Positions 3,196-39,900 of a DNA stretch of 64,000 nucleotides are shown one piece after another. The translations under genes and the position numbers were made by a program. The notes under the pieces were generated by a model. It was given only the letters and a program-made list of their open reading frames with translations, was not told the origin of the DNA and searched no databases. The stretch's first letter is position 1; each line of letters starts with the position of its first letter. Source of the DNA: Candidatus Methanosphaera massiliense (GTDB lineage: Archaea > Methanobacteriota > Methanobacteria > Methanobacteriales > Methanobacteriaceae); contig NZ_JARBXM010000001.1 in NCBI RefSeq assembly GCF_028890305.1, positions 1,282,501 to 1,346,500 of the forward strand, in the 5' to 3' direction.

Positions 3196-4743
3196 TTACT
3201 TTTTAAGTAATCTTAGTAATTCTTTCTTTGAATCTACACATGTGTAATCTTCATGTGGTAACTTTTTCTCATTAAATCCATAGCAGACATAATGTGTTTC
3301 AGGAGTTAAGAATTTACACCATTTTTTCCTTGAAAGTTCATGATATACTACTAAATAAAATCCTACATCAAACCATTCACTATCCTGTAGTGCTCGGTAT
3401 AATCTTATATTAATGAATGTTTCATTAAATGGCCTGGTTTTGAGTAGGATATACACGTAGGGTATCCATAATATTAACTTCTTTTTTAATGAACCTTTTA
3501 ATTTATAGTATTCAAGGGTAACCTTGTTACGTATAATTAATTTTTCTTTTAACTCATTGTATTTATTAGTGCTTTCCTGTTTATATTCCTTAAATTGAGT
3601 ATCTTCTTCAATAATCTTCCTATTTAACTTATCTAATTCTACTTGATAATCTGCTATTTTCTTATCATTAGCTTGTATTTGGTCTTCTTCGCTTAGGTAA
3701 TCTATCTTATAATCTTCAAGTAATTTATCATTATCATGAATCTTCTCGAGATGATATTTTAGTTCATTCTGATATTGGGCAATCTCCTTATTATTGATGG
3801 ATATCTGATTGATTTCATTTTTCAATTTTTCCTCATACTCTTTTATCTTTTTTTCTTGTTCAATAATCTTATTTTTGTGTATGGTAGATACATCATAAAA
3901 ACTAGTATCTATAATTTTATTAACATTACTAATAACATCTCTTAACTGCCAAGGTTTTAATGTTTCATGACCCTTATTTCTACCAATTATCCTGACATTA
4001 ATATTATTTTTATCATCTTTTTTAATGTAAGGTAATTCACATAACTTCTGGAAGAACGAGAAATACTCCTTATTAAGATCTAAATCAAATGTATAATCAA
4101 GTAATACAACAGAACGTGGAATATATTTCTCTTTTTTTATTAGTTCTATGATTGATATTCTATACTCATAATTATCATGTATCTGCTTAAGTGACATATT
4201 CTTAAATACATGTTTAATAAGGGGTTTAGGATATGACCTGAATATTTCAAGTTGTGGAACTTCTGCTATTGAAATAGAATTTTTAACGAGAATTGATAAC
4301 ATGATAGCCATATATCCACCTGATAAACTACCATAAAACATGAGGTTACCATATTGATTATTAACATCATACTTGTAGAGGTTCCGTGATATTTTAGAAA
4401 TGATTTCTGCAATAGTTTCTAAGTACCAGTTATCAATTGTACCTAATCCCCATCCTGTTGTTATTTCATTATTTATGTAAGTTGTAGGATCATTAATGAA
4501 TATTGTTGATTCTTCAAAGTACCAGTTATATCTTTCATAATAAGGTTTTGTTCTGTCATGTTTGTTAGGAATACTGCCCGGTGCTAGAATTAGTAATTTA
4601 TCGCTAGTATCCTTTAGATTAACAAGAAATTCATATTTAATATCATCTGCATATACAACTAGGTTGAATGGCTTATTCACTGGAAAATTATATCCTTCGA
4701 GTGATTCTAGGTTGCATTCAATTATTTTATCAGGTATGTTCAT
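3196..4743 (-). CDS. alpha/beta-hydrolase-like protein with long coiled coil and glycan-associated C-terminus
   Basis: 515 residues in three parts. Residues 1 to about 290 look like an alpha/beta-hydrolase fold with a nucleophile-elbow motif GSLSGG near residue 140. Residues about 295-405 form a coiled coil rich in E, K, I and N. The last about 85 residues contain FYLVVYHE...HYVCYGFNEKKLPHEDY, a pattern I associate with short repeats next to glycosyltransferases ('Yl...HYl..G..e.r.P'). I infer a role in surface-polysaccharide assembly or modification, perhaps de-acylation. Substrate unknown. Only 13 nt separate it from the convergent lipid-reductase gene. Confidence 0.55.
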   Translation of the reverse strand: MNIPDKIIECNLESLEGYNFPVNKPFNLVVYADDIKYEFLVNLKDTSDKLLILAPGSIPNKHDRTKPYYERYNWYFEESTIFINDPTTYINNEITTGWGLGTIDNWYLETIAEIISKISRNLYKYDVNNQYGNLMFYGSLSGGYMAIMLSILVKNSISIAEVPQLEIFRSYPKPLIKHVFKNMSLKQIHDNYEYRISIIELIKKEKYIPRSVVLLDYTFDLDLNKEYFSFFQKLCELPYIKKDDKNNINVRIIGRNKGHETLKPWQLRDVISNVNKIIDTSFYDVSTIHKNKIIEQEKKIKEYEEKLKNEINQISINNKEIAQYQNELKYHLEKIHDNDKLLEDYKIDYLSEEDQIQANDKKIADYQVELDKLNRKIIEEDTQFKEYKQESTNKYNELKEKLIIRNKVTLEYYKLKGSLKKKLILWIPYVYILLKTRPFNETFINIRLYRALQDSEWFDVGFYLVVYHELSRKKWCKFLTPETHYVCYGFNEKKLPHEDYTCVDSKKELLRLLKK

Positions 4744-4926
4744 TATTTACGTCCTATAAATTGTTTTAAAATTTTGTTATATTAGATGAAAAGATATTAT
4801 ATTATATTTCTATAATCTAAATTATTTATACATTAATAATCTATAATAATAAAAAAAAGTTAAAAAGAAAAGGAGTTTAGAAGTTTAGAGAATATATGCT
4901 ATTTTATCATGTATTTGAATTGATTC

Positions 4927-6075
4927 TTATTGATTAAATAATTCTTCTGCTTTATGCATATAGTCAATGACATCCACATCAAATGGACAGTTTTTTATAC
5001 ATTGACCGCATTCAATACAATCTGAAGCGTGTGCTGACAGGTTATTATAGTGTTCTCGTATACTTTCAGGTATTTGTTCATGTATTCTTGCTAAATCATA
5101 ATACTTGTTTACCATGGCTACGTTAATGTTAACGGGACATGGTGCACAGTGTCCACAATAGGTACATTGACCTTTGAATGAATGATTAGGTGCATTCTTT
5201 AATATTTTGGTGTAGTCACGTTCATCCTCATTAGCTTCGTAATATGCTAATGAATCATCTAATTCCTTAATACTTTTTACTCCTACAAAGACTGATTTCA
5301 CTGCTGGACGTGTAAGTGCATATTCTATACATTGGATTGGAGTGAATGCCACTCCAAATGGTGAGTCTTCATCGTTGAATAATCGGCCACCTGCAAAGCA
5401 TTTCATTACATTTATTGCTGTATTATTATTTTCACATTTCTGGTATAATTCTGCTCTTTCAGGTGCAATGCTTGATAAATCACGTGTATATTTCTCTTTA
5501 TTTGAGTAATCTTCAATATCTTCTGTAGCAGGCATTATATCATATGCAGGGTTAATGCTGAATAATATTAATTCTATTTCTGGTTCTTCTGCTGCTAGTA
5601 ATGCTACATCAGGGTTATGTGTACTTAGTCCTATGTGGTGTATGGTGTTATCTTCTTTTAGTTGTCGTATGTATTCTATGAATTCTCCATTCATAATTTC
5701 ATGGTACTCTTTTATTTCATCTACGTAGTGTATCATTCCAAAGTCCATGTAATCTGTTTTGAATTTTTTTAGTAAATCTTCGAATGCTGGTTTTACTTTA
5801 TCGATTTCACGTGTACGAACGTATTGGTTATTTTGCCATGTGGAACCAATATGACCCTGTATTATCCAGTTTTCACGGTTGCCTTCAATTGCATTTCCTA
5901 GTTTTCTTCTTATATCAGGATCTGACATCCAACAATCTAATGCATTTATTCCTTTTTGTTCACAGTATTTTACTAATTTGTTAACTTCTTCGTCAGGTAA
6001 TTCTCCCATCCATTCAGCACCGAAGGATAGTTCACTGATTTTTATCCCGGTATTTCCTATTTCCCTGTATTTCAT
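4927..6075 (-). CDS. aldo/keto reductase with C-terminal ferredoxin domain
   Basis: 382 residues from ATG 6075, chosen because AAAGGAGATTTTTT immediately precedes it; the frame runs further upstream to 6285 but without a ribosome site and into the next gene. The N-terminus MKYREIGNTGIKISELSFG is the classic aldo/keto reductase beta-hairpin and first strand, with a TIM barrel to about residue 290. Two 4Fe-4S motifs follow (CTYCGHCAPCP and CIECGQCIKNCP). Such fused proteins are common in anaerobes and are thought to couple carbonyl reduction to ferredoxin rather than NADPH. Substrate unknown. A paralogue lies at 22358-23476. Confidence 0.85.
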   Translation of the reverse strand: MKYREIGNTGIKISELSFGAEWMGELPDEEVNKLVKYCEQKGINALDCWMSDPDIRRKLGNAIEGNRENWIIQGHIGSTWQNNQYVRTREIDKVKPAFEDLLKKFKTDYMDFGMIHYVDEIKEYHEIMNGEFIEYIRQLKEDNTIHHIGLSTHNPDVALLAAEEPEIELILFSINPAYDIMPATEDIEDYSNKEKYTRDLSSIAPERAELYQKCENNNTAINVMKCFAGGRLFNDEDSPFGVAFTPIQCIEYALTRPAVKSVFVGVKSIKELDDSLAYYEANEDERDYTKILKNAPNHSFKGQCTYCGHCAPCPVNINVAMVNKYYDLARIHEQIPESIREHYNNLSAHASDCIECGQCIKNCPFDVDVIDYMHKAEELFNQ

Positions 6076-6247
6076 TAAAAAATCTCCTTTTCTATTTATT
6101 ATATTTATATATTTACATATATTTATATTTAAAGTGAATATATCATTAATATAATCATAAAAATTAGAACAGATATTATTATTTAAATGAATACTTGATA
6201 AAAAAAATAGTAAATGGTCAGGAATAGATGAATATAACATAATTATT

Positions 6248-6673
6248 TTATGATAAATCATCAATAATCTGAAATAGATTCTCATATTCGTTTAATGTTT
6301 TCTGTAATTTTTTCTTATTCATAGTGATTATTTGTATTTCATCCTTTTGTGGGGTAATTTCTGTTTTAGTTCTTAAATCATTATTATCTTTAAATAATTT
6401 ATCAACTAGTGTTTTTATTTGATTGTATTTTTCTTCAGTTATATTATACATTCGATGATTTTCAAGTACATCCATTGCATGGACAATACCCTTATTAATA
6501 GTTTCAGCACAGTGTGTTATTTTTATTTTAGTATCTAAGTAGTATGGTGTATCTATTTTATCTGATTGTATTAGTATGTTGATGATGCAAGTTATGTGTT
6601 CTTCATCTGAGTTATCAATAATGTGTTGAAGTGTTTGGAATTGTCTGAGGTTTGCATTGTTAAATGTTTCCAT
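6248..6673 (-). CDS. hypothetical protein, 141 aa
   Basis: Soluble, mostly helical by composition, with an acidic C-terminus ending IIDDLS. No recognised motif. The start is supported by GGGAAAAGATTAAA upstream. It lies 172 nt before the aldo/keto reductase start on the same strand and may be co-transcribed. Function unknown. Confidence 0.6.
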   Translation of the reverse strand: METFNNANLRQFQTLQHIIDNSDEEHITCIINILIQSDKIDTPYYLDTKIKITHCAETINKGIVHAMDVLENHRMYNITEEKYNQIKTLVDKLFKDNNDLRTKTEITPQKDEIQIITMNKKKLQKTLNEYENLFQIIDDLS

Positions 6674-6976
6674 TTTAATCTTTTCCCTATAAGTTTTTTG
6701 AATTTATATTTAGTATTATGTTATTTTTAATTTATATTCATATATTAAGTTTTATTAATTGAATTAAGTAGAATAATATAATCAATATTTTCAATTTTTC
6801 TTGTTAGGTTTTTCCCTAATACTTAATTTGATACTTTTTCTATTAATTAATTATATTTAATAAATAATTAACTAATATTACTTTTTTTTATTTGAATATT
6901 GTATATTAGAATTACAATAATTTACACATTAGATTTTATAATTCGAATATCTATGATTTAATAATAATATTCACAA

Positions 6977-6990
6977 TGTTTAATTAAACA
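6977..6990. promoter_or_regulatory. perfect palindrome upstream of mtaA promoter
   Basis: TGTTTAATTAAACA reads the same on both strands. It sits about 50-60 bp upstream of the TATA box of mtaA, a normal place for an archaeal activator or repressor site. Palindromes of this length also arise by chance in AT-rich DNA, so this is only a candidate operator. Confidence 0.3.
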
Positions 6991-7037
6991 ATGTAGATAT
7001 AATATTACTAATTAATTTAAATTTAATAACATAAAGC

Positions 7038-7051
7038 GCTTATATATAGAT
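7038..7051 (+). promoter_or_regulatory. probable TATA box of mtaA
   Basis: GCTTATATATAGAT is a strong archaeal TATA element in front of a methyltransferase gene that should be highly expressed. It implies a transcription start near 7067-7075 and a 5' leader of about 80 nt before the ATG at 7152. Confidence 0.5.
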
Positions 7052-7151
7052 GATTAAATAAGCAATTGTCTAAATAATGAACTTTATCATAATAACTTAA
7101 CTTATGACAAAGAAATTCATTAAATCTTAAATATTGGATAAAGTGGTGAAA

Positions 7152-8171
7152 ATGGATATAAATTATAAAAAAAATCTAGAAGACGTGTTAAATGGTAAAC
7201 AAACAGATATAACTCCAGTTATTACTGTTACACAATCAGGTATATTAGATGCAATGGAATTAACTGGAACATCTTGGCCAACAGCACATAAAGATCCCGA
7301 ACAAATGGCAACTCTAGGAGCATCATTATATGAACTAGCAGGCTTAGAAGATGCGAAAATACCATTCTGTCTAGCGGTAGAAGCAGAATCAATGGGATGT
7401 GAAGTAGATTTAGGTTCTGGTGGTAGAACACCTGAGGTAGTAAAATCACCATTTGAAAAACCAGAAGATATAGAAATCCCAGAAAACTTCGAAGAATCAG
7501 GCAGAATACCAGTAATATGCGAGGCAGTAGAAATATTGCATGAAAGATATGATAATCTACCCGTATGTGTAGGTATCACAGGACCATTTACAGTAGCCGG
7601 CCATTTAATAGGTGTGGAAGAAATACTAAAAATGATTAACCTAGATTTATTTGCAGTAGAGGATGCAATAGAAGTAGCAGCAGAAGCAGTATCAGCATAT
7701 ATCAGGAAATTAAATGAAGTAAAACCTGAAGTGATTTGTGTAGCAGATCCAACATCATCTGGTGACTTGCTTAGCCCTCTTGATTTTGAACAGTTATGTA
7801 GGCCTGCTCTTGAAGATATTGAAGAGGTTATGAAATCACAGAATGTCTTACATATATGTGGTCATACAGCCGGTATATTAAAGGACATGTTATCCTGTGG
7901 ATATAATGGTATAAGTATAGAGGAAGCAGTTGACATGAACTTTGCTCAAAAGGTAAAACATGACTTAGGAGATAAATGTCAAGTATGTGGTAATATTTCA
8001 ACAAGTAAAACCTTGTTTAGAGGAACACCTGAGGAAGTAAGAGAAGAGGTATTACAAGCATTAAATAAGGGAGTAGATGTAGTAGCTCCTAGTTGTGGTA
8101 TAGCAGCTGCTAGTCCATTAAAGAATATTCAAGCTATGGTTAATGCTCGTAATGAATTCTTTGGAATATAA
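7152..8171 (+). CDS. mtaA: methylcobamide:coenzyme M methyltransferase
   Basis: 339 residues of the uroporphyrinogen-decarboxylase superfamily. The zinc-binding motif of MtaA/MtbA enzymes is visible as H234-x-C236 (LHICGHT) plus C315 (APSCGI). The enzyme moves the methyl group from methylated corrinoid protein to coenzyme M, making methyl-CoM for methane formation. In Methanosphaera this serves methanol-dependent growth, with MtaB and MtaC (not in this window). I chose ATG 7152, which follows AAGTGGTGAAA. Upstream in-frame GTG and TTG codons (7134-7146) are possible but have no better ribosome site. MtaA versus a methylamine-type paralogue is not proven by sequence alone. Confidence 0.88.
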   Translation: MDINYKKNLEDVLNGKQTDITPVITVTQSGILDAMELTGTSWPTAHKDPEQMATLGASLYELAGLEDAKIPFCLAVEAESMGCEVDLGSGGRTPEVVKSPFEKPEDIEIPENFEESGRIPVICEAVEILHERYDNLPVCVGITGPFTVAGHLIGVEEILKMINLDLFAVEDAIEVAAEAVSAYIRKLNEVKPEVICVADPTSSGDLLSPLDFEQLCRPALEDIEEVMKSQNVLHICGHTAGILKDMLSCGYNGISIEEAVDMNFAQKVKHDLGDKCQVCGNISTSKTLFRGTPEEVREEVLQALNKGVDVVAPSCGIAAASPLKNIQAMVNARNEFFGI

Positions 8172-8303
8172 TAATAATTTACTTATTTTTTTTTATTTAT
8201 CTATTAATTATTGACTAATTTTTCTTGTTTAATTAATAAAAGATTTAAATATGTTATTAAAAGATAATATAATTATAAAAATGATAAAAGATGGCTTGAG
8301 AAT

Positions 8304-8696
8304 ATGAATGATAAAATAGAATACAAACCAATAGGATTTATACATAGTAAATACACTAATCCACAGGAAATGCCTAAAAATTACACAGAATCAAAAGATG
8401 TTGAAGCATACATTGAGTTAGATGAAAAATACATGAAAGGTATATCTGATTTACGTATAGGTGATGAATATATATTATTATTTCACTTCCATAAATCAGA
8501 AGGCTATGATTTAACAGTGCCTTGGCGTGGAGTGGGACCTATGAGAGGATTATTCTCTACACATGCTCCAAGAAGACCTAATCCTATAGGAGTATCTATA
8601 ATCGCTGTAACAAAAATTGAGGATAATAAGATATATTTCACAGGCGTCGACATGTTAGACGGTACACCTGTTCTTGATATTAAAAATCATAATTAA
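8304..8696 (+). CDS. TsaA/TrmO-family tRNA methyltransferase-like protein
   Basis: 130 residues. Hallmarks of the TsaA-like (YaeB/VirR) beta-barrel are present: YKPIGFIHSKY at the N-terminus and the signature FSTHAPRRPNPIGVS around residues 89-103, followed by GVDMLDGTPVLDIK. Bacterial TrmO uses S-adenosylmethionine to N6-methylate t6A37 of tRNA. Archaeal short homologues carry only the catalytic domain, as here. Activity on tRNA is therefore inferred. The gene stands alone downstream of mtaA. Confidence 0.82.
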   Translation: MNDKIEYKPIGFIHSKYTNPQEMPKNYTESKDVEAYIELDEKYMKGISDLRIGDEYILLFHFHKSEGYDLTVPWRGVGPMRGLFSTHAPRRPNPIGVSIIAVTKIEDNKIYFTGVDMLDGTPVLDIKNHN

Positions 8697-8755
8697 AAAA
8701 AAGTTATATTTAAGTATAAAAAAATAAAAAAAGAATAGTTTTATGATAATTACAT

Positions 8756-8974
8756 TTAATCATCATATACTTCTATACATTCACCTTGACATTTTTCTGC
8801 AGCTTCTTCATAAACTGATGCATCATCTACTTCTATTTCATCCATACCATCGTCTCTTTCTGAACCGATTATTGTAGCTTTGTCATCATCATCAAAAGTG
8901 AATTTTGTTTCATCTACTTCTACACAGTTTCCACAACTTGTGCATTCTTCTCTGTCTAATACTACTTCTACCAT
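8756..8974 (-). CDS. small 4Fe-4S ferredoxin
   Basis: 72 residues, very acidic. Cysteines C11-x2-C14-x2-C17 (ECTSCGNCVE) and a distal pair in EKCQGECIEVYD bind one 4Fe-4S cluster, as in single-cluster ferredoxins. The middle is rich in D and E (FDDDDKATIIG). A GGAGATATT ribosome site precedes the ATG. It is a likely electron carrier for the surrounding flavoproteins, but the partner cannot be told from sequence. Confidence 0.85.
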   Translation of the reverse strand: MVEVVLDREECTSCGNCVEVDETKFTFDDDDKATIIGSERDDGMDEIEVDDASVYEEAAEKCQGECIEVYDD

Positions 8975-9094
8975 AATATCTCCTCATTATAATTTTTTAA
9001 TAATAATATATACATTCTATTATTATTAAGTTTTTGTTACTATTATGGTAAAAAATTACTTAATCAATCAAATCTTTATTATTTGTTTTATTAA

Positions 9095-9622
9095 CTACCA
9101 TCTATCCCAATGAATTTTATTAGTATCCATTTTATCTAATGGTTCTTGCTTCTTTAATGGATATCCTAATGCTATTAAAGAGAATGGAATAATAGTCTCT
9201 GGTAAATTAAAGTATTTTATGAGTTTATTCATTCTTTTTTCTACTGGATGTATAGCTGTCCATACAGCTCCAAGCCCCAGTGCTTCTGCTGCTAGTAATA
9301 TATTTTCTGTTGCTGCTGAGAGATCTTGTATTGCTAATTCTTCTAATCCTTGATATGTTTTTTCAGTATCATATAATACTATTATACCAGCAGTAGCATC
9401 TTTAAACATTCCAGAGTATTCATGTATACTTGCCATATCAATTAGTGTTTGTTTATCTTGTATTACAATAAAATGCCATGGTTGAAGATTTAATCCAGAG
9501 GGAGCACTTATTCCTGCTTTAATTATTTTATCTAAATCTTCTTTTGTTATCTTTTTATCAGTGTATTGTCTGACACTTTTTCTATTGTATATATTATCTA
9601 GTATTATATCGGTTTTATTCAT
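9095..9622 (-). CDS. nitroreductase-family flavoprotein
   Basis: 175 residues. NRKSVRQYTDKKI near residue 14 and SAPSGLNLQPWHFIVI near residue 40 are the FMN-binding signatures of the nitroreductase fold. GLGAVWTAIHP near residue 117 and the C-terminal ALGYP complete it. Such enzymes are FMN dimers that reduce nitroaromatics, quinones or flavins with NAD(P)H. The physiological substrate in methanogens is unknown. The gene is monocistronic, next to a ferredoxin gene on the same strand. Confidence 0.85.
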   Translation of the reverse strand: MNKTDIILDNIYNRKSVRQYTDKKITKEDLDKIIKAGISAPSGLNLQPWHFIVIQDKQTLIDMASIHEYSGMFKDATAGIIVLYDTEKTYQGLEELAIQDLSAATENILLAAEALGLGAVWTAIHPVEKRMNKLIKYFNLPETIIPFSLIALGYPLKKQEPLDKMDTNKIHWDRW

Positions 9623-9694
9623 ATTATTTTTCCTCTTTTATAGTTAAAGTTAATTATCTTTTGATTATATAAATAGTTTTAATGGTTGATGATT

Positions 9695-9898
9695 ATGAAA
9701 ATGGAAATAAATATTGATCCTGAACTTCAAAGACGTGCACGTGCCGTATGTAGAAATGTTAGTGGTTTAACCTTAGCTGGCTATTATGAATATTTGATAG
9801 AAATGAAATTAAGGGATTTACCTAGTGTGGATAAGATTGAAGATAAGCGTCCTAGATTGGATAGTTATAATCCTGATGAATTGGATGATTTATGGTAA
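9695..9898 (+). CDS. small ribbon-helix-helix-like protein
   Basis: 67 residues from ATG 9695, behind GGTTGATGATT; in-frame TTG 9686 and ATG 9689 are alternatives. A short beta strand (MEINIDPEL) is followed by two helices (QRRARAVCRNV and TLAGYYEYLIEMKLRDL), the layout of ribbon-helix-helix DNA-binding proteins and antitoxins. The acidic tail PDELDDLW is unusual. No toxin gene is next to it. A DNA-binding role is inferred only from the pattern. Confidence 0.5.
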   Translation: MKMEINIDPELQRRARAVCRNVSGLTLAGYYEYLIEMKLRDLPSVDKIEDKRPRLDSYNPDELDDLW

Positions 9899-9977
9899 TC
9901 GTAATCTATGAATCATCTTTTATTAGATTATTTATTATATCTATATTTTAAAAAAAAAGTTAAAGATAATAAAAGTA

Positions 9978-34994: not shown

Positions 34995-35585
34995 ATGAAA
35001 ACACATATAATATATTGTCATCCAAGTAATAAAAGCCTCACATACCAGATAAAAGAAAAATATATTCAAGCACTAACAGATGTAGGAAAAGAATACACAA
35101 TATCTGATTTATATGCAAAGAATTTTAACTCAGATATGACTGAGGAAGAATATCTCAGAGAATCAAATTACACACTAGATACACCATCAAGTGACGTGTT
35201 AGAAGAACAAAAACTACTGGATGAAGCTGATAATCTAACATTCATCTTCCCAGTATTCTGGCTAGACTGCCCATCAAAACTCGTGGGATGGTTTACAAGA
35301 GTATTCACATATGGCTACAGATATTACTCAACAGAGGGCAAAGAACAAATGAAAACATATGATAATATAAGATTTATCATAACCATGGGCAGCGGATACA
35401 AAGATTTAGAAGCTGATGGAAAAATAAGTGCAATAAAAACAATCTTCGACGTCGATAGAATAAAAGATAAAGCAAGAAATACACAATTCTACATCTACAC
35501 TAGTACAAGTCATGATAAAATAACTGATGAAAGAAAAAGAAAAATATTAGATGATGTATATAAAATAGGTATTAATTCAAACTAG
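34995..35585 (+). CDS. NAD(P)H:quinone oxidoreductase-like flavoprotein (flavodoxin fold)
   Basis: 196 residues. MKTHIIYCHPSNKSLTYQIK is the FMN/FAD phosphate loop of the NQO1/MdaB/KefF group, and LTFIFPVFWLDCPSKLVGWFTRVFTYGYRY is the diagnostic central motif (around residues 80-110). It reduces quinone-like or flavin acceptors with two electrons from NAD(P)H. It is single, converging with the RiPP-type operon, and may be unrelated to it. Confidence 0.85.
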   Translation: MKTHIIYCHPSNKSLTYQIKEKYIQALTDVGKEYTISDLYAKNFNSDMTEEEYLRESNYTLDTPSSDVLEEQKLLDEADNLTFIFPVFWLDCPSKLVGWFTRVFTYGYRYYSTEGKEQMKTYDNIRFIITMGSGYKDLEADGKISAIKTIFDVDRIKDKARNTQFYIYTSTSHDKITDERKRKILDDVYKIGINSN

Positions 35586-35755: not shown

Positions 35756-36370
35756 CTAGTAAGGATCTTCTATAGCATTAACAGGACAATTTTCGTAACA
35801 TGTACCACAATCAAGACAATGATTAGACATTATATGATATGGACTTCCTTCTTCTATAGCATTTTGAGGACAGGTAGCTTTACATACATCACATTCTATA
35901 CAATTATCAGTTATCACATATTTTTTATTGAAATATGTTGATTCTTCAGTGTTTATCTTGAATGTTTTCCGATATATTGGTTTTTGGGTTAAATCAAAGA
36001 ATTCCATTTCTCCACATTCTACCTTAAATGGTTCTAAGATGTATCGTGCATCACCTGGATAAACATTATTCATATACTTATTTTTTTCAAACATTTTATC
36101 TATCCATTTGTGTTGATCTTCTAATTGTTTTACTTCACCTATTATACGTACTGTTTTATTATCTTTTAATCCTACTAATGCAATGTGATTGTTTTCTTGT
36201 AATTGTTTATAGAATCTTTTTCCTCTTGCAGTTAGGAAGTATACTGTTTCTCCATCTTCTAACATTACATCTATTACCCTACTTTGCGGATTTCCATCCT
36301 TATCTACTGTAGCTATAGTTGTATCTATTAATTCTCTTAAAAATTTTAAGCAATCCTGTTTACTATCCAT
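35756..36370 (-). CDS. PPOX-type flavin-binding protein fused to a two-cluster ferredoxin
   Basis: 204 residues. Residues 1 to about 145 match the pyridoxamine-5'-phosphate-oxidase-like split-barrel flavin domain (TTIATVDKDGNPQSRVIDV, VYFLTARGKRFYKQL, NHIALVGLK). The C-terminus carries two 4Fe-4S motifs, CIECDVCKATCP and CLDCGTCYENCP. It could pass electrons between ferredoxin and a flavin-bound substrate. It is the last gene of the operon with the TACGS peptide and radical SAM enzyme, 5 nt behind the dehydrogenase gene. It may deliver electrons to the maturation enzymes or reduce the product; both are inferences. Confidence 0.85.
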   Translation of the reverse strand: MDSKQDCLKFLRELIDTTIATVDKDGNPQSRVIDVMLEDGETVYFLTARGKRFYKQLQENNHIALVGLKDNKTVRIIGEVKQLEDQHKWIDKMFEKNKYMNNVYPGDARYILEPFKVECGEMEFFDLTQKPIYRKTFKINTEESTYFNKKYVITDNCIECDVCKATCPQNAIEEGSPYHIMSNHCLDCGTCYENCPVNAIEDPY

Positions 36371-36375
36371 AAAAT

Positions 36376-37365
36376 TTACTCCTTATTATTGATTACTACT
36401 ATTTTCCCTAATTTTTTATTATTCTCTGTTACACTATGTGCTTTTCCAATTTCTTCTAATGAATATTTATCTGCAATGATTGGTCTTATATCATTCTTGT
36501 AAATATATCTAAATATTTCATTCATCTTTTCCTGTGTTGGGTAATTACTATAGAATGATGTAAGATATTTATCATTTGGTATATCAATAATAGGATCGAA
36601 TTTTTCTATTGTTTCTTGTCCACCAAGTATACCTGTAATGCATAAAGTTCCATGTTTTTGCAGAGCTTTGAATGATTCCTTCATAGTTAAAGGACCAAGC
36701 AGTTCAAGTACCTTACTAACACCCTCAGGAGCTAATGATAATATATTAGTTATTAGATTATCATCATCTATGAGAGCATAGCTTGCTCCATACATACTAA
36801 GATATTTAAGCCTGTCACGGCTACGAGTAGTAGCTATTACTGTAGCACCACACCTGGAGGCTAATTGTATTGCAGCTATACCAACAGTACTACTTCCACC
36901 ACGGATGAGTATAACATCCCTACTGTTTAATTCTAATGAATCAAATAAGGAACAATAGGCTGTGAAGAATGTTTCTGGAAGTGCACTGATTTCCTCTACA
37001 CTATACTTCTCTGCCAGTTTTTCATCTATTTTAAAAACGTTAGATTCTGGTAGAAGGGCGTACTCTGCATAGCTTCCATCAAAGCTTCTGCCCATACCTC
37101 CCATTAATGCTACAACATGGTCTCCTATATCCAGACAACAATCTGATTTATCAACAACAACACCATAACATTCAATACCTGGTATAACGGGCAAGTTAAT
37201 ATAATCCTCATCTGCCTCATATTCCCTGAGTATTAACTCTGAACGATTAAGACCAAAACCTAATACTTCTACTAATACCCAGCCATTCTTTACTTCTGGC
37301 TTAGCTATCTCTGACACGTGTAATTGACTAGCTTCACATGTCTCGGTTAGTAATACTGCTTTCAT
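36376..37365 (-). CDS. zinc-type alcohol dehydrogenase / quinone-reductase-like oxidoreductase (MDR family)
   Basis: 329 residues from ATG 37365, set by GGTGATTTC; an upstream in-frame ATG would overlap the preceding gene. It has the GroES-like N-terminal domain (VLGFGLNRSELILREY, PVIPGIECYGVVV) and a Rossmann domain with IRGGSSTVGIAAIQLA near residue 145. Catalytic zinc ligands are not obvious, so it may be a quinone-oxidoreductase or enoyl-reductase type. It lies 8 nt after the radical SAM gene and 5 nt before the PPOX-ferredoxin gene, so it is part of the peptide operon and a candidate tailoring reductase. Confidence 0.85.
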   Translation of the reverse strand: MKAVLLTETCEASQLHVSEIAKPEVKNGWVLVEVLGFGLNRSELILREYEADEDYINLPVIPGIECYGVVVDKSDCCLDIGDHVVALMGGMGRSFDGSYAEYALLPESNVFKIDEKLAEKYSVEEISALPETFFTAYCSLFDSLELNSRDVILIRGGSSTVGIAAIQLASRCGATVIATTRSRDRLKYLSMYGASYALIDDDNLITNILSLAPEGVSKVLELLGPLTMKESFKALQKHGTLCITGILGGQETIEKFDPIIDIPNDKYLTSFYSNYPTQEKMNEIFRYIYKNDIRPIIADKYSLEEIGKAHSVTENNKKLGKIVVINNKE

Positions 37366-37373
37366 GAAATCAC

Positions 37374-38399
37374 CTATATTTTCTTCCAACACTGAGGGTC
37401 ACTACTATACATAGAACCCGTATAACCATAGCTTACAGCAGGACAGCCCCTACAGAATCTTAGTAATTCACATTTACTGCATTTCTCGAAATTCTCGTAT
37501 TGTCTGTATTCATCCATCTTTCTACTGGTAAATAGTGATACAATATTTTCCTCAAAGGCATTACCAATTAGACTGTTCATACGTCTACAAGCATATACAT
37601 TACCATTTGGCAGTATTGTTACATGAGAATTACCACAGTTACATCCATCATAGATTACATCATCATCTAAATCACTAGGGATTTCAAATAATCCTTTTTC
37701 ATACAGGAATAATGTCCATAGATGATCTTTTAAATCAAAATTAGTACTGGAATCCTTGTATTGTTCATATTTATCCCAGCATTTCTCTAAAAACTGATGA
37801 TATTCCTCTGGCGTCATATGACTGTCCTCATCAAATCCTTCAGGACAATATCTTGCAAAACTATAAGTATCAACACCATGCTCTACCACTACATCAATTA
37901 ATTCTGGTATTTCATCCATATTAACTTTAGAGACTGTTGTCATGATATTAACATTCATACCAGCATCTTTTAGTACTTTAATCTTATCTAGTGTTGTATC
38001 ATATGAACCAGGCATTCTGAAGTAATCATGTGTTTTTCTTAAACCATCTAGTGATAATTGGTATGCAAGGCATCCTGCATCCTTTAATTTTTCACATACT
38101 TCACTTGTTAGATGGAAGGGATTGCCCATAATACCAAATTTAATGTTATTTTCCTTAAATAAATTTATTAACTTCCAGAAATCTGGATGAAGTAGTGGAT
38201 CTCCACCTGTGACATAAAAGAATGGTTCTCTGTTTACTATGTTACACATGTTTATACAGTTATTGAATATATCCTCTAAATCATTAATACTTGTTGTTGT
38301 TAGATTTGTTGTATGTTCATTATTAAATATATAACAGTGTTTGCAGCGTTGGTCACATTCATCTGTTATATGCCATTGAAATGCGAAAAAATCTCTCAT
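37374..38399 (-). CDS. radical SAM/SPASM peptide maturase
   Basis: 341 residues. The radical SAM cluster ligands C15-x3-C19-x2-C22 (ECDQRCKHC) are intact, followed by TGGDPLLHPDFW, the GGE-like SAM-binding strand. The C-terminus is a SPASM domain with cysteines at 253, 255, 271, 307, 310, 316, 319 and 337, enough for two auxiliary clusters. SPASM enzymes commonly modify ribosomal peptides, making thioether, C-C or other links, as in anSME, AlbA and PqqE. The gene lies 86 nt downstream of a Cys-repeat peptide gene on the same strand, its likely substrate. Chemistry is not known. Confidence 0.9.
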   Translation of the reverse strand: MRDFFAFQWHITDECDQRCKHCYIFNNEHTTNLTTTSINDLEDIFNNCINMCNIVNREPFFYVTGGDPLLHPDFWKLINLFKENNIKFGIMGNPFHLTSEVCEKLKDAGCLAYQLSLDGLRKTHDYFRMPGSYDTTLDKIKVLKDAGMNVNIMTTVSKVNMDEIPELIDVVVEHGVDTYSFARYCPEGFDEDSHMTPEEYHQFLEKCWDKYEQYKDSSTNFDLKDHLWTLFLYEKGLFEIPSDLDDDVIYDGCNCGNSHVTILPNGNVYACRRMNSLIGNAFEENIVSLFTSRKMDEYRQYENFEKCSKCELLRFCRGCPAVSYGYTGSMYSSDPQCWKKI

Positions 38400-38485
38400 A
38401 TATAATCTCTCTATGATAATAAAAAAATAGGTTAAAAAAAATGTAAAAAGGGAAAAAAGTTATTAAAAATTATTAATTTTACTAT

Positions 38486-38683
38486 TTATAAGTTAATTTC
38501 ACTACCACATGCAGTATTGATTTCGCTTCCACAAGCTGTGTTAACTTCACTACCGCATGCTGTACTTACTTTACTTCCACAAGCAGTATTGATTTCACTA
38601 CCGCAAGCTGTGTTTAAGTAGTTTTTAGAGTTTTTTGATTGGTAATAATTAGCGTTTTTAGTCCAAGAGTTTAATTTGTACAT
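38486..38683 (-). CDS. Cys-repeat precursor peptide with five TACGS units (candidate RiPP)
   Basis: 65 residues. A 23-residue leader (MYKLNSWTKNANYYQSKNSK...) is followed by five copies of an 8-residue unit, NTACGSEI, with only outer positions varying (K for E, V for I, S for N). Cysteines fall at 27, 35, 43, 51 and 59, exactly 8 apart, and the tail is NL. AAGGAG lies 10 nt before the ATG. Codons for T, A, C, G and S differ between copies while the residues do not, so the core is under protein-level selection. With the radical SAM/SPASM gene downstream it is a strong precursor candidate; each TACGS is probably one modification site. Confidence 0.88.
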   Translation of the reverse strand: MYKLNSWTKNANYYQSKNSKNYLNTACGSEINTACGSKVSTACGSEVNTACGSEINTACGSEINL

Positions 38684-38877
38684 TGTATTAATTCTCCTTT
38701 TGATTTAGTTTATTTTTTTTAATATGAGTCATATAATTCTAACTCTTATTTTATAATATTATTTTTCTCTTATTTAAAGAAAATGTAATCTTAATGTTAC
38801 TTAGTTACTAAAAAGTTACCATAATATCTAATAGTAGTAATAATATAAAGTTTTATAGTATTTAAGGATTAGATTTT
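38684..38877. promoter_or_regulatory. shared promoter region of the peptide operon and the HxlR-type gene
   Basis: About 190 bp between divergent starts. It contains GTTAC at 38796-38800, 38804-38808 and 38815-38819, with a small palindrome TTAGTTACTAA across the middle copy. AT-rich TATA-like elements lie on both sides (for example AATATAAAG near 38840 for the regulator). The repeats are candidate sites for the HxlR-type protein. Confidence 0.45.
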
Positions 38878-39276
38878 ATGACAAATGATAAAGATGAGAT
38901 TCCATGTCCTATGGAATTAGCAATTCAGTTAATTAATAAGAAGTGGGTTATTCAGATTATTAGGGACATGTTTTTTGGTAAGACTCATTTTAGTGAGTTT
39001 AAGGAGGATAAACCTGGCCTATCTAATAAGGTTTTATCTGGTTGTCTTAAGAATTTGGAAGAAAATGGTTTGATTGAGAAGAATATTTCTGATATTGATG
39101 GTGTTGTTGATATTTCTTATAATCTTACTGATCATGGTCGTGCTTTAAATAAGGTTATTTATGAGCTTGCCATGTATACTTTGAATGAGGATATTAATAA
39201 TAAGATTTATGATGATGAACAGAAGAAAGAAATTGGTGAATATTTTAGGGATAAGTTAAATATTGATGATAATTAA
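38878..39276 (+). CDS. HxlR-family transcriptional regulator
   Basis: 132 residues. CPMELAIQLINKKWVIQIIRDMFFGKTHFSEFKED begins the HxlR winged helix with its conserved N-terminal cysteine (C10) and the K-W-x-x-I-I helix. NKVLSGCLKNLEENGLIEK holds the recognition helix and YNLTDHGRAL the wing. HxlR-type proteins often sense aldehydes, quinones or thiol stress through this cysteine. Divergence from the TACGS peptide operon across 190 bp makes it the probable regulator of that operon. Confidence 0.85.
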   Translation: MTNDKDEIPCPMELAIQLINKKWVIQIIRDMFFGKTHFSEFKEDKPGLSNKVLSGCLKNLEENGLIEKNISDIDGVVDISYNLTDHGRALNKVIYELAMYTLNEDINNKIYDDEQKKEIGEYFRDKLNIDDN

Positions 39277-39503: not shown

Positions 39504-39569
39504 ATAAAAAATAGATTAAAAATTGTGCTACAATTAATAAATGTGCTACAAATAAAAGGAGGTGATAAA

Positions 39570-39694: not shown

Positions 39695-39900
39695 ATGTAA
39701 GGACTTTTTCCAAACACAGATAATAGTTTATTTCATATAATATAATAACTTTAAAGGATATACATCAAATTTATTGTGCTACACATAATTATTGTGCTAC
39801 AAAATTATTAATTGTTTAGCTTTATTTACTCAAACATAGATTGATAAAATAAATTATATGTTACAATTAAGTAACAGATAACTTTAAATTTATAAATAAG

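Follow-up and report, generated by a model that had tools for sequence, protein, structure and literature searches.

The window analysed here, a stretch of 64,000 nucleotides from Candidatus Methanosphaera massiliense, carries on its minus strand a short gene for a repeat peptide and, after a gap of 86 bp, the gene of a radical SAM/SPASM enzyme (Table 1). Both had been described in the first-pass annotation, as a 65-residue peptide with five octamers that each hold a Cys in an invariant TACGS, and as a same-strand radical SAM enzyme with an intact CxxxCxxC motif and a Cys-rich SPASM domain, and both descriptions hold. Absent from it was the larger redox operon to which the pair belongs. The enzyme gene is followed by genes for an MDR/quinone-oxidoreductase-like protein and for a protein combining a PNPOx split barrel with two [4Fe-4S] motifs (PNPFd), and an HxlR-family regulator is encoded divergently. 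The MDR gene overlaps the stop codon of the enzyme gene if a GTG start is used, the ATG at 37365 being the likelier start. No convincing HxlR operator was found in the 194-bp divergent region, and scans for sigma-70 promoters and terminators returned 25 and 1 sites versus 24.8 and 0.7 in shuffled sequences, as is unsurprising in an archaeon. A gene for a flavodoxin-fold oxidoreductase and two short tandem arrays lie elsewhere in the window.

Table 1. Features of the ACGX locus in the window and of related loci discussed in the text
Feature	Position	Strand	Remarks
Flavodoxin-fold NAD(P)H oxidoreductase	34995-35585		opposite strand, just past the operon
PNPOx split-barrel protein with two [4Fe-4S] motifs (PNPFd)	35756..36370	-	PF01243, PF00037; 5 bp after the MDR gene
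MDR/quinone-oxidoreductase-like protein	36376..37392	-	PF08240/PF00107; PIG3 166.9 bits, below its cut-off of 296.8
AcgM radical SAM/SPASM maturase	37374..38399	-	341 aa; TIGR04340 566.1 bits, cut-off 400
SPASM region, eight invariant Cys (C253 to C337)	37389..37643	-	35-enzyme alignment; PF13186
CxxxCxxC cluster motif (C15, C19, C22)	38334..38357	-	invariant in 35 aligned enzymes
acgA-type precursor peptide	38486..38683	-	65 aa, ATG start
Core of the precursor, five 8-residue repeats (N/S)TACGS(E/K)(I/V)	38495..38614	-	TRF and pS/pN
Leader of the precursor, residues 1-23 (MYKLNSW...NYL)	38615..38683	-	identical in the 7-repeat strain
Divergent promoter region, 194 bp	38684..38877	.	short AT-rich inverted repeats only
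GGAG	38694-38697		10 nt ahead of the ATG of the precursor peptide
HxlR-family regulator, divergent, N-terminal Cys-Pro (C10)	38878..39276	+	PF01638 62.0 bits
Two short AT-rich tandem arrays sharing GTGCTA	39515-39557 and 39766-39809		intergenic
SCCIDTT precursor loci	L027, L029, L036, L039, L043/L105, L106, L110, L112, L113; e.g. L112:634-897	+ (L112)
SirTM/Zn-Macro beside the ACGX enzyme, Roseburia sp. 831b plasmid	L114 (NZ_CP135163.1) 4222-9942
Unlinked SirTM/Zn-Macro pair, genome of the window	L117:4672-7572		~115 kb from the ACGX genes
Radical SAM/SPASM protein, genome of the window	L002:1123-2580		485 aa; by a TetR-like gene (by eye)

An archaeal ACGX pair with a repeat form of its own

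The TIGR04340 match of the window enzyme covers positions 2-341 of 341 and exceeds the curated cut-off; in Pfam it matches Radical_SAM and SPASM. In an alignment of 35 of the 81 enzyme sequences at hand, the three cluster cysteines, eight C-terminal SPASM cysteines (C253, C255, C271, C307, C310, C316, C319 and C337) and an extra C185 are invariant, those of the window enzyme included. The name 'ACGX', given in the first-pass annotation, proved correct, TIGR04340 (enzyme) and TIGR04341 (peptide) being the ACGX families. This family assignment places the window pair, as an archaeal representative, in the ACGX (acgA-acgM) RiPP system, already a named prediction, and we consider it almost certain that peptide and enzyme form a RiPP pair. 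The enzyme lies far over the family cut-off and adjoins five TACGS repeats, most of the bacterial partner peptides scanned match TIGR04341 (AcgA), and NCBI labels acgA and acgM on a Roseburia plasmid. A further radical SAM/SPASM protein is encoded elsewhere in the genome of the window (Table 1), and a long match similar to it occurs in several Methanobacteriaceae genomes.

Where the window departs from the named system is in its 8-residue, single-Cys repeat, for which there is no TIGR04341 match. Against NCBIfam at E 1 the peptide matched no family, so that it lies below the TIGR04341 cut-off (28 bits), and the peptide of a same-species strain gave no match to TIGR04341 even at E 10. Among the peptides of seven relatives scanned with this profile, four pass, two fall below the cut-off and one, the same-species peptide, has no match; a Methanobrevibacter peptide reached 18.0 bits, under the cut-off. 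A kin peptide of Methanosphaera sp. ISO3-F5 is annotated as a 'hypothetical protein' by NCBI. In the full-text literature searched, whose coverage excludes most subscription journals, we found no paper on the ACGX radical SAM system, TIGR04340 or TIGR04341, and, within the same coverage, no product or function for the system.

The window peptide consists of a 23-residue leader, five octamers (NTACGSEI, NTACGSKV, STACGSEV, NTACGSEI and NTACGSEI) and two end residues, and the tandem array in its gene was also detected by TRF. Two strains of one species have different numbers of units (5 versus 7), and the peptide-bearing loci as a whole have between 2 and 11 (contig-end fragments counted), variation that would suit neutral slippage, with the peptide no substrate at all. 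The divergence between units argues otherwise. The five window units differ at pS 0.82 (synonymous, near saturation) versus pN 0.074; in the 7-unit strain, whose leader is identical to that of the window, the values are pS 0.76 and pN 0.086. The residues T, A, C, G and S are constant in 12 of 12 units of the two strains while the codons of all five vary. Since pS is near saturation and pN low between units, selection keeps each unit: the octamers are under purifying selection and each is maintained. The pS/pN comparison rules out a chance or slippage origin of the repeats, and with the linkage and co-occurrence of peptide and enzyme across genomes also standing against it, the no-substrate reading has a negligible probability.

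Linkage, co-occurrence and a second precursor core

A contig scan for related loci returned 117, of which the best 80 (54-100% identical) were kept, giving 81 with the window; many of the 80 are close kin, and their neighbouring ORFs were called mechanically. By record titles, these 80 loci belong to Methanobacteriota, Thermoplasmatota, Bacteroidota, Bacillota, Elusimicrobiota and, in one case, Spirochaetota, and for many of these best 80 of 117 the titles point to a rumen or gut origin. In 74 of the 81 loci, two or more Cys-Gly units are present in a peptide encoded at most 1 kb upstream of the enzyme. Three of the other seven are too near a contig end upstream, and four are without such a peptide: two of these hold Cys-rich variants (L080, L090), one an SCCIDTT precursor described below (L043), and in the last (L092) no precursor peptide was found. 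In the peptides of the 74 loci, Gly directly follows 448 of 464 Cys, and Ala precedes the Cys in 94% of the Cys-Gly sites.

Within the Methanobacteriaceae, AcgM scored over the cut-off in 27 of 119 genomes (9 of 20 in the genus of the window). A peptide match was found in 25 of the 27 enzyme-positive versus 2 of the 92 enzyme-negative genomes (Fisher 4e-21, kinship ignored), an MDR match in 24 of 27 versus 2 of 92, and a PNPFd match in 24 of 27 versus 6 of 92; over the three genes the Fisher values range from 4e-21 to 2e-16, for 119 genomes of one family with kinship ignored. All 24 MDR and 24 PNPFd matches of the enzyme-positive genomes lie on the enzyme contig, within 323 and 1268 bp, respectively, and three of the 27 genomes are without MDR and three without PNPFd. 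Both unmatched enzyme-positive genomes do have a precursor, a divergent ACGX peptide in G053 and an SCCIDTT precursor in G110, and the match of G092, counted among the 25, is an SCCIDTT precursor found through its leader. On the enzyme-negative side, G050 has intact peptide, MDR and PNPFd genes beside a broken enzyme gene, in G087, which has no enzyme, two other genes separate MDR from PNPFd, and PNPFd matches are weaker or partial in G008, G022 and G040 and full in G081. A weak peptide match in G025 contains a stop and was judged due to chance. An apparent second peptide copy in G056 was rejected as a paralogue, the peptide gene being split over two contig ends; it is probably one gene cut by the assembly, and G046 looks alike.

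Peptide, enzyme, MDR and PNPFd are thus gained and lost together in the Methanobacteriaceae, an observation that is new here. The pairing put forward in the first-pass annotation is strongly supported by its linkage across phyla together with this joint gain and loss: peptide and enzyme co-occur in other Methanobacteriaceae and in anaerobic bacteria, as the 25 of 27 genomes and 74 of 81 loci attest. HxlR kin are common, occurring in 76 of the 119 genomes with or without the enzyme, and we therefore rejected HxlR co-occurrence as specific to the enzyme.

In a quick tree the Methanobacteriota fall to one side of a branch with support 93. Because five of the seven Thermoplasmatota fall inside a mostly Bacillota group, transfer of the system between domains appears likely from these sequences. 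The neighbouring genes change 8-12 times on the same tree, so their associations do not go back to one inheritance. Plasmid copies of the ACGX system are present in four records, two of which are versions of one plasmid. In plasmid pNP174 of Methanosphaera sp. ISO3-F5 (L107/L115) the peptide, MDR and PNPFd genes are intact and the enzyme gene is broken; BREX brxL is encoded near this ACGX copy.

At nine loci of Methanobrevibacter type, an ACGX-type leader precedes a core built of SCC(I/V)DTT units (Table 1), and several of these SCCIDTT precursors adjoin their own HxlR gene. The SCC core occurs in 8 of the 119 Methanobacteriaceae genomes, the enzyme being present in all eight; a leader-like match in G100, a genome without the enzyme, contains a stop. 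In G092 and G110 the SCCIDTT precursor is the only precursor found, and the genome of the window has, among the matches found, the ACGX form only. No family scored over its cut-off for these precursors, six of which were searched against NCBIfam and two against Pfam. Aligned each with the ACGX precursor from its own genome, three SCCIDTT precursors have 13/23, 15/24 and 15/23 leader residues in common and different cores. These three pairs hence show the pattern by which RiPP precursors are recognised, in which a tailoring enzyme adjoins precursors whose leaders are conserved and whose cores diverge; a leader kept while the core is exchanged is what leader recognition in RiPP systems predicts. 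Cys-Gly is rare in the new core (0-1 per peptide in three examined), so that a Gly after the Cys would not be required if AcgM also acts on it.

Redox and ADP-ribosylation genes around the pair

Downstream genes were counted by tblastn within 4.5 kb in those 62 of the 81 loci whose downstream sequence extends 2.2 kb or more. MDR is present in 39, a nitroreductase in 15, both in none, and PNPFd in 33; only two of the 62 loci, L080 and L090, have none of the three, the other 60 carrying one or more. In L030, which has MDR, a nitroreductase lies ~5.2 kb past the enzyme, outside the 4.5-kb limit. HxlR is found in 41 of the 62 loci and Rrf2 in five, and 18 have neither within 4.5 kb, seven of these with less than 250 bp upstream. 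The N-terminal Cys-Pro is kept in 49 of 50 linked HxlR ORFs, the exception being in L043, which is also without an ACGX peptide. According to the available portions of two papers, a conserved N-terminal Cys enables DUF24/HxlR regulators to sense electrophiles, quinones, diamide, HOCl or aldehydes, and nitro- and azoreductases are under their control (PMC6943732, PMC7835342). Ten clusters recur in at least seven loci, namely the enzyme, two peptide clusters, HxlR, MDR, PNPFd, nitroreductase, SirTM, Zn-Macro and a HAD-type cluster named by eye; among these ten we found no exporter, transporter, peptidase, protease, ligase or immunity gene. Pfam assigned families to six of nine further neighbouring ORFs scanned in other loci, with GcvH-L and LplA absent from them, and gave none for the remaining three; a MerR regulator (L044) and a glyoxalase (L041) were among the nine.

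SirTM occurs within 4.5 kb of the enzyme in 15 of the 81 loci, all among the 62 with at least 2.2 kb downstream (L041, L042, L044, L053, L058, L066, L067, L068, L078, L082, L089, L092, L095, L096 and L099), on the strand of the enzyme in 14 of them; Zn-Macro occurs in 14 loci, each of which also carries SirTM. The L044 sirtuin aligns with S. pyogenes SirTM (5a3a) at 194 bits, Gln to Gln in a QG motif, and we read this residue as probably the His-to-Gln site described for SirTM in the available text of PMC11490716. The macrodomain beside it matches the Zn-Macro structures 8rsi and 5kiv. Whole-genome searches covered 37 chosen genomes of the 81 loci and, in addition to these, that of the window. 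In 14 of the 15 linked loci (all but L099), every genome had a SirTM match, and just one in 12 of 14. A second batch of 23 genomes included L099; of the other 22, which have no linked SirTM, four have SirTM elsewhere. In total, SirTM is present in 19 of the 37 and ACGX-linked in 15. None of the Methanobacteriaceae loci examined has a linked SirTM, and the genome of the window, outside the 37, is a further case in which the SirTM/Zn-Macro pair is unlinked (Table 1). The latter pair is followed by glutathione-peroxidase-like and flavodoxin genes (all names by eye except SirTM), and DUF1848 occurs in some SirTM-carrying ACGX loci.

On the Roseburia plasmid the order is a divergent HTH regulator, acgA, acgM, a nitroreductase, a 4Fe-4S protein, a protein-ADP-ribose hydrolase, a Sir2-type protein and DUF1848. 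This resembles the extended SirTM/Zn-Macro operon of S. aureus and S. pyogenes, which comprises lipoyl-GcvH-L, LplA, OYE and LLM, in that the pair adjoins genes of flavin/NAD(P)H oxidoreductases and of what may be a carrier of sulfur. It differs in that no GcvH-L or LplA is annotated between acgA and DUF1848, and in the ACGX relatives the carrier would be the ACGX peptide. A speculative and on balance improbable extension would make the matured ACGX peptide an intracellular redox or thiol carrier gated by ADP-ribosylation, in which SirTM would mark the peptide or its modified Cys and Zn-Macro would remove the mark; such a peptide would be the counterpart of lipoyl-GcvH-L. As GcvH-L is the only known SirTM substrate in the portion of the Zn-Macro paper available (PMC11490716), the linkage bears on a stated gap. 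That paper does not mention 'radical SAM', and none in the full-text literature searched names both SirTM and radical SAM.

Candidate chemistry and function

After TIGR04340, the family closest to the window enzyme is SbtM (TIGR04082, 183.2 bits, below the cut-off of 350); the heme b synthase AhbD comes next (136 bits), and NirJ2 reaches 121 bits. All 35 enzymes are matched by the SbtM profile, and over them, of the 25 families listed out of 51, only TIGR04340 has a better E-value. By analogy, AcgM would carry out an SbtM-like four-electron oxidation of each Cys. In a 5-thiooxazole ring the Cys closes on the carbonyl of the preceding residue, which in the ACGX peptides would be that of the Ala, and each repeat would be expected to shift the mass by -4.031 Da, the five together by about -20.16 Da. 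The substrate of SbtM is likewise a Cys of a ribosomal peptide, which it turns into a thiooxazole with loss of 4 H, as shown by NMR according to the accessible part of a review (PMC11002830). Because SbtM is the nearest family and the substrate motif fits, we tentatively predict that each ACG repeat acquires a single thiooxazole in place of some other modification of its Cys, at somewhat below an even chance. Equal chemistry is a guess from the nearest family, since AcgM reaches about half the cut-off score (183 of 350), by which it is no SbtM member, and is without the first ~197 N-terminal positions of SbtM; AhbD and NirJ2, heme-pathway enzymes that do not act on peptides, moreover score not far behind. 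A search of 151 genomes from the same phylum as the window returned no SbtM match at E 1e-70, and its controls gave no match either. Of the earlier proposal that each repeat is modified once to give a cross-linked or cleaved product, the single modification per repeat is consistent with the conserved motif (448 of 464 Cys followed by Gly in 74 loci), while a cross-linked or cleaved product is no better supported than other chemistry, the next-closest curated enzyme being the thiooxazole-forming SbtM.

The main rival to the thiooxazole is thioether formation of the ranthipeptide or sactipeptide kind, in which AcgM would bond the sulfur of each Cys to a carbon atom in a residue close by, a Glu/Asp 3-4 positions on or an Ala/Ser, giving a string of small thioether rings. 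Profiles of SPASM families that form thioethers also match, that of the ranthipeptide maturase PapB (NF047865) 35 of 35 enzymes, StsB 34 and SkfB 33. In the window repeats +3 is E or K, and D or E occupies +3 in 23% of 448 Cys-Gly sites and +4 in 37% of 439. Yet PapB scores 72.6 bits for the window enzyme, under its cut-off of 340 and far under SbtM, AhbD and NirJ, acidic residues are absent between the two Cys of the bacterial ACGSACG unit, and the precursor of L055 is without any D or E. We consider this reading rather unlikely.

Thiooxazole chemistry on Cys repeats has a parallel in the multinuclear non-haem iron oxidative (MNIO) enzymes, which, in the available parts of two papers, act on Lys-Cys/EGKCG repeats with 4 H lost per repeat, as predicted for ACGX, and give products that bind copper (PMC12668002, PMC12452194). 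The bufferins and captophorins, 5-thiooxazole metallophores made in this way, share with the ACGX system Cys-containing repeat precursors and a context of metal or oxidative stress. They differ in that they are MNIO-made, and bufferin and oxazolin precursors have signal peptides according to the accessible text (PMC12452194); the ACGX system has a radical SAM enzyme, belongs to anaerobes, and no signal peptide was noticed by eye.

We propose that thiol or electrophile stress, sensed by HxlR through its N-terminal Cys, would turn the operon on, and that AcgM would bind the leader and then perform the same oxidation once per A-C-G unit. The product would be an intracellular poly-thiooxazole/thiol peptide that buffers a soft metal, electrophiles or redox equivalents, and the PNPOx/[4Fe-4S] protein and MDR (a nitroreductase elsewhere) may supply electrons to AcgM or recycle the product. 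As a whole, this explanation of an HxlR-switched ACGX RiPP in a redox operon, with SbtM-like chemistry and an intracellular thiol peptide, is tentative and falls a little short of even, while the redox/thiol-stress role taken separately is slightly favoured. Counting against the explanation are the wide occurrence of HxlR genes irrespective of the enzyme, the 18 loci with neither HxlR nor Rrf2, the exceptions to the MDR and PNPFd co-occurrence, the two loci that carry no oxidoreductase of the three kinds, and the scarcity of Cys-Gly in the SCCIDTT core.

The tight linkage to exchangeable oxidoreductases (MDR or a nitroreductase, never both within the limits counted) and the MDR bias towards enzyme-positive genomes could also point to a small redox cofactor, made from the peptide for the adjoining MDR, nitroreductase or PNPOx/[4Fe-4S] protein. 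Mycofactocin has such a redox use, and the mycofactocin maturase family matches the window enzyme at 86 bits. A precursor of 2 to 11 units, selected unit by unit in the one precursor tested, is nonetheless unlike that of a single-product cofactor, and the ten most frequent neighbour clusters include neither a protease nor a ligase, so that we regard a cofactor as improbable. Many RiPPs are secreted antimicrobial or signalling peptides, and the rumen or gut origin of many loci would suit such a product. The same ten clusters include no exporter, peptidase or immunity gene, on which ground we rejected the bacteriocin reading; the leaders show no signal peptide, judged by eye, and the neighbours are oxidoreductases instead. 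A secreted peptide is therefore very unlikely.

The preferred reading, an intracellular thiol-stress peptide with SbtM-like chemistry, predicts a mass shift per repeat, a 305 nm band and HxlR-dependent induction; the gated-carrier extension predicts ADP-ribosylation of the peptide. As far as we searched, three things are new: the archaeal repeat form, previously unrecognised; the further core behind an ACGX-type leader; and the conservation of a redox/ADP-ribosylation operon. A curated, functionally blank peptide system is found here in archaeal and bacterial anaerobes of several phyla, and its operon context shifts the likely function away from secretion and towards an intracellular peptide, with a predicted role in thiol, electrophile or metal stress; the operon points to thiol or electrophile stress, not to antibiosis. 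If the gated-carrier extension holds, orphan SirTM/Zn-Macro pairs would gain a substrate, and anaerobes would possess an oxygen-independent, radical-SAM-made counterpart of the thiooxazole metallophores.
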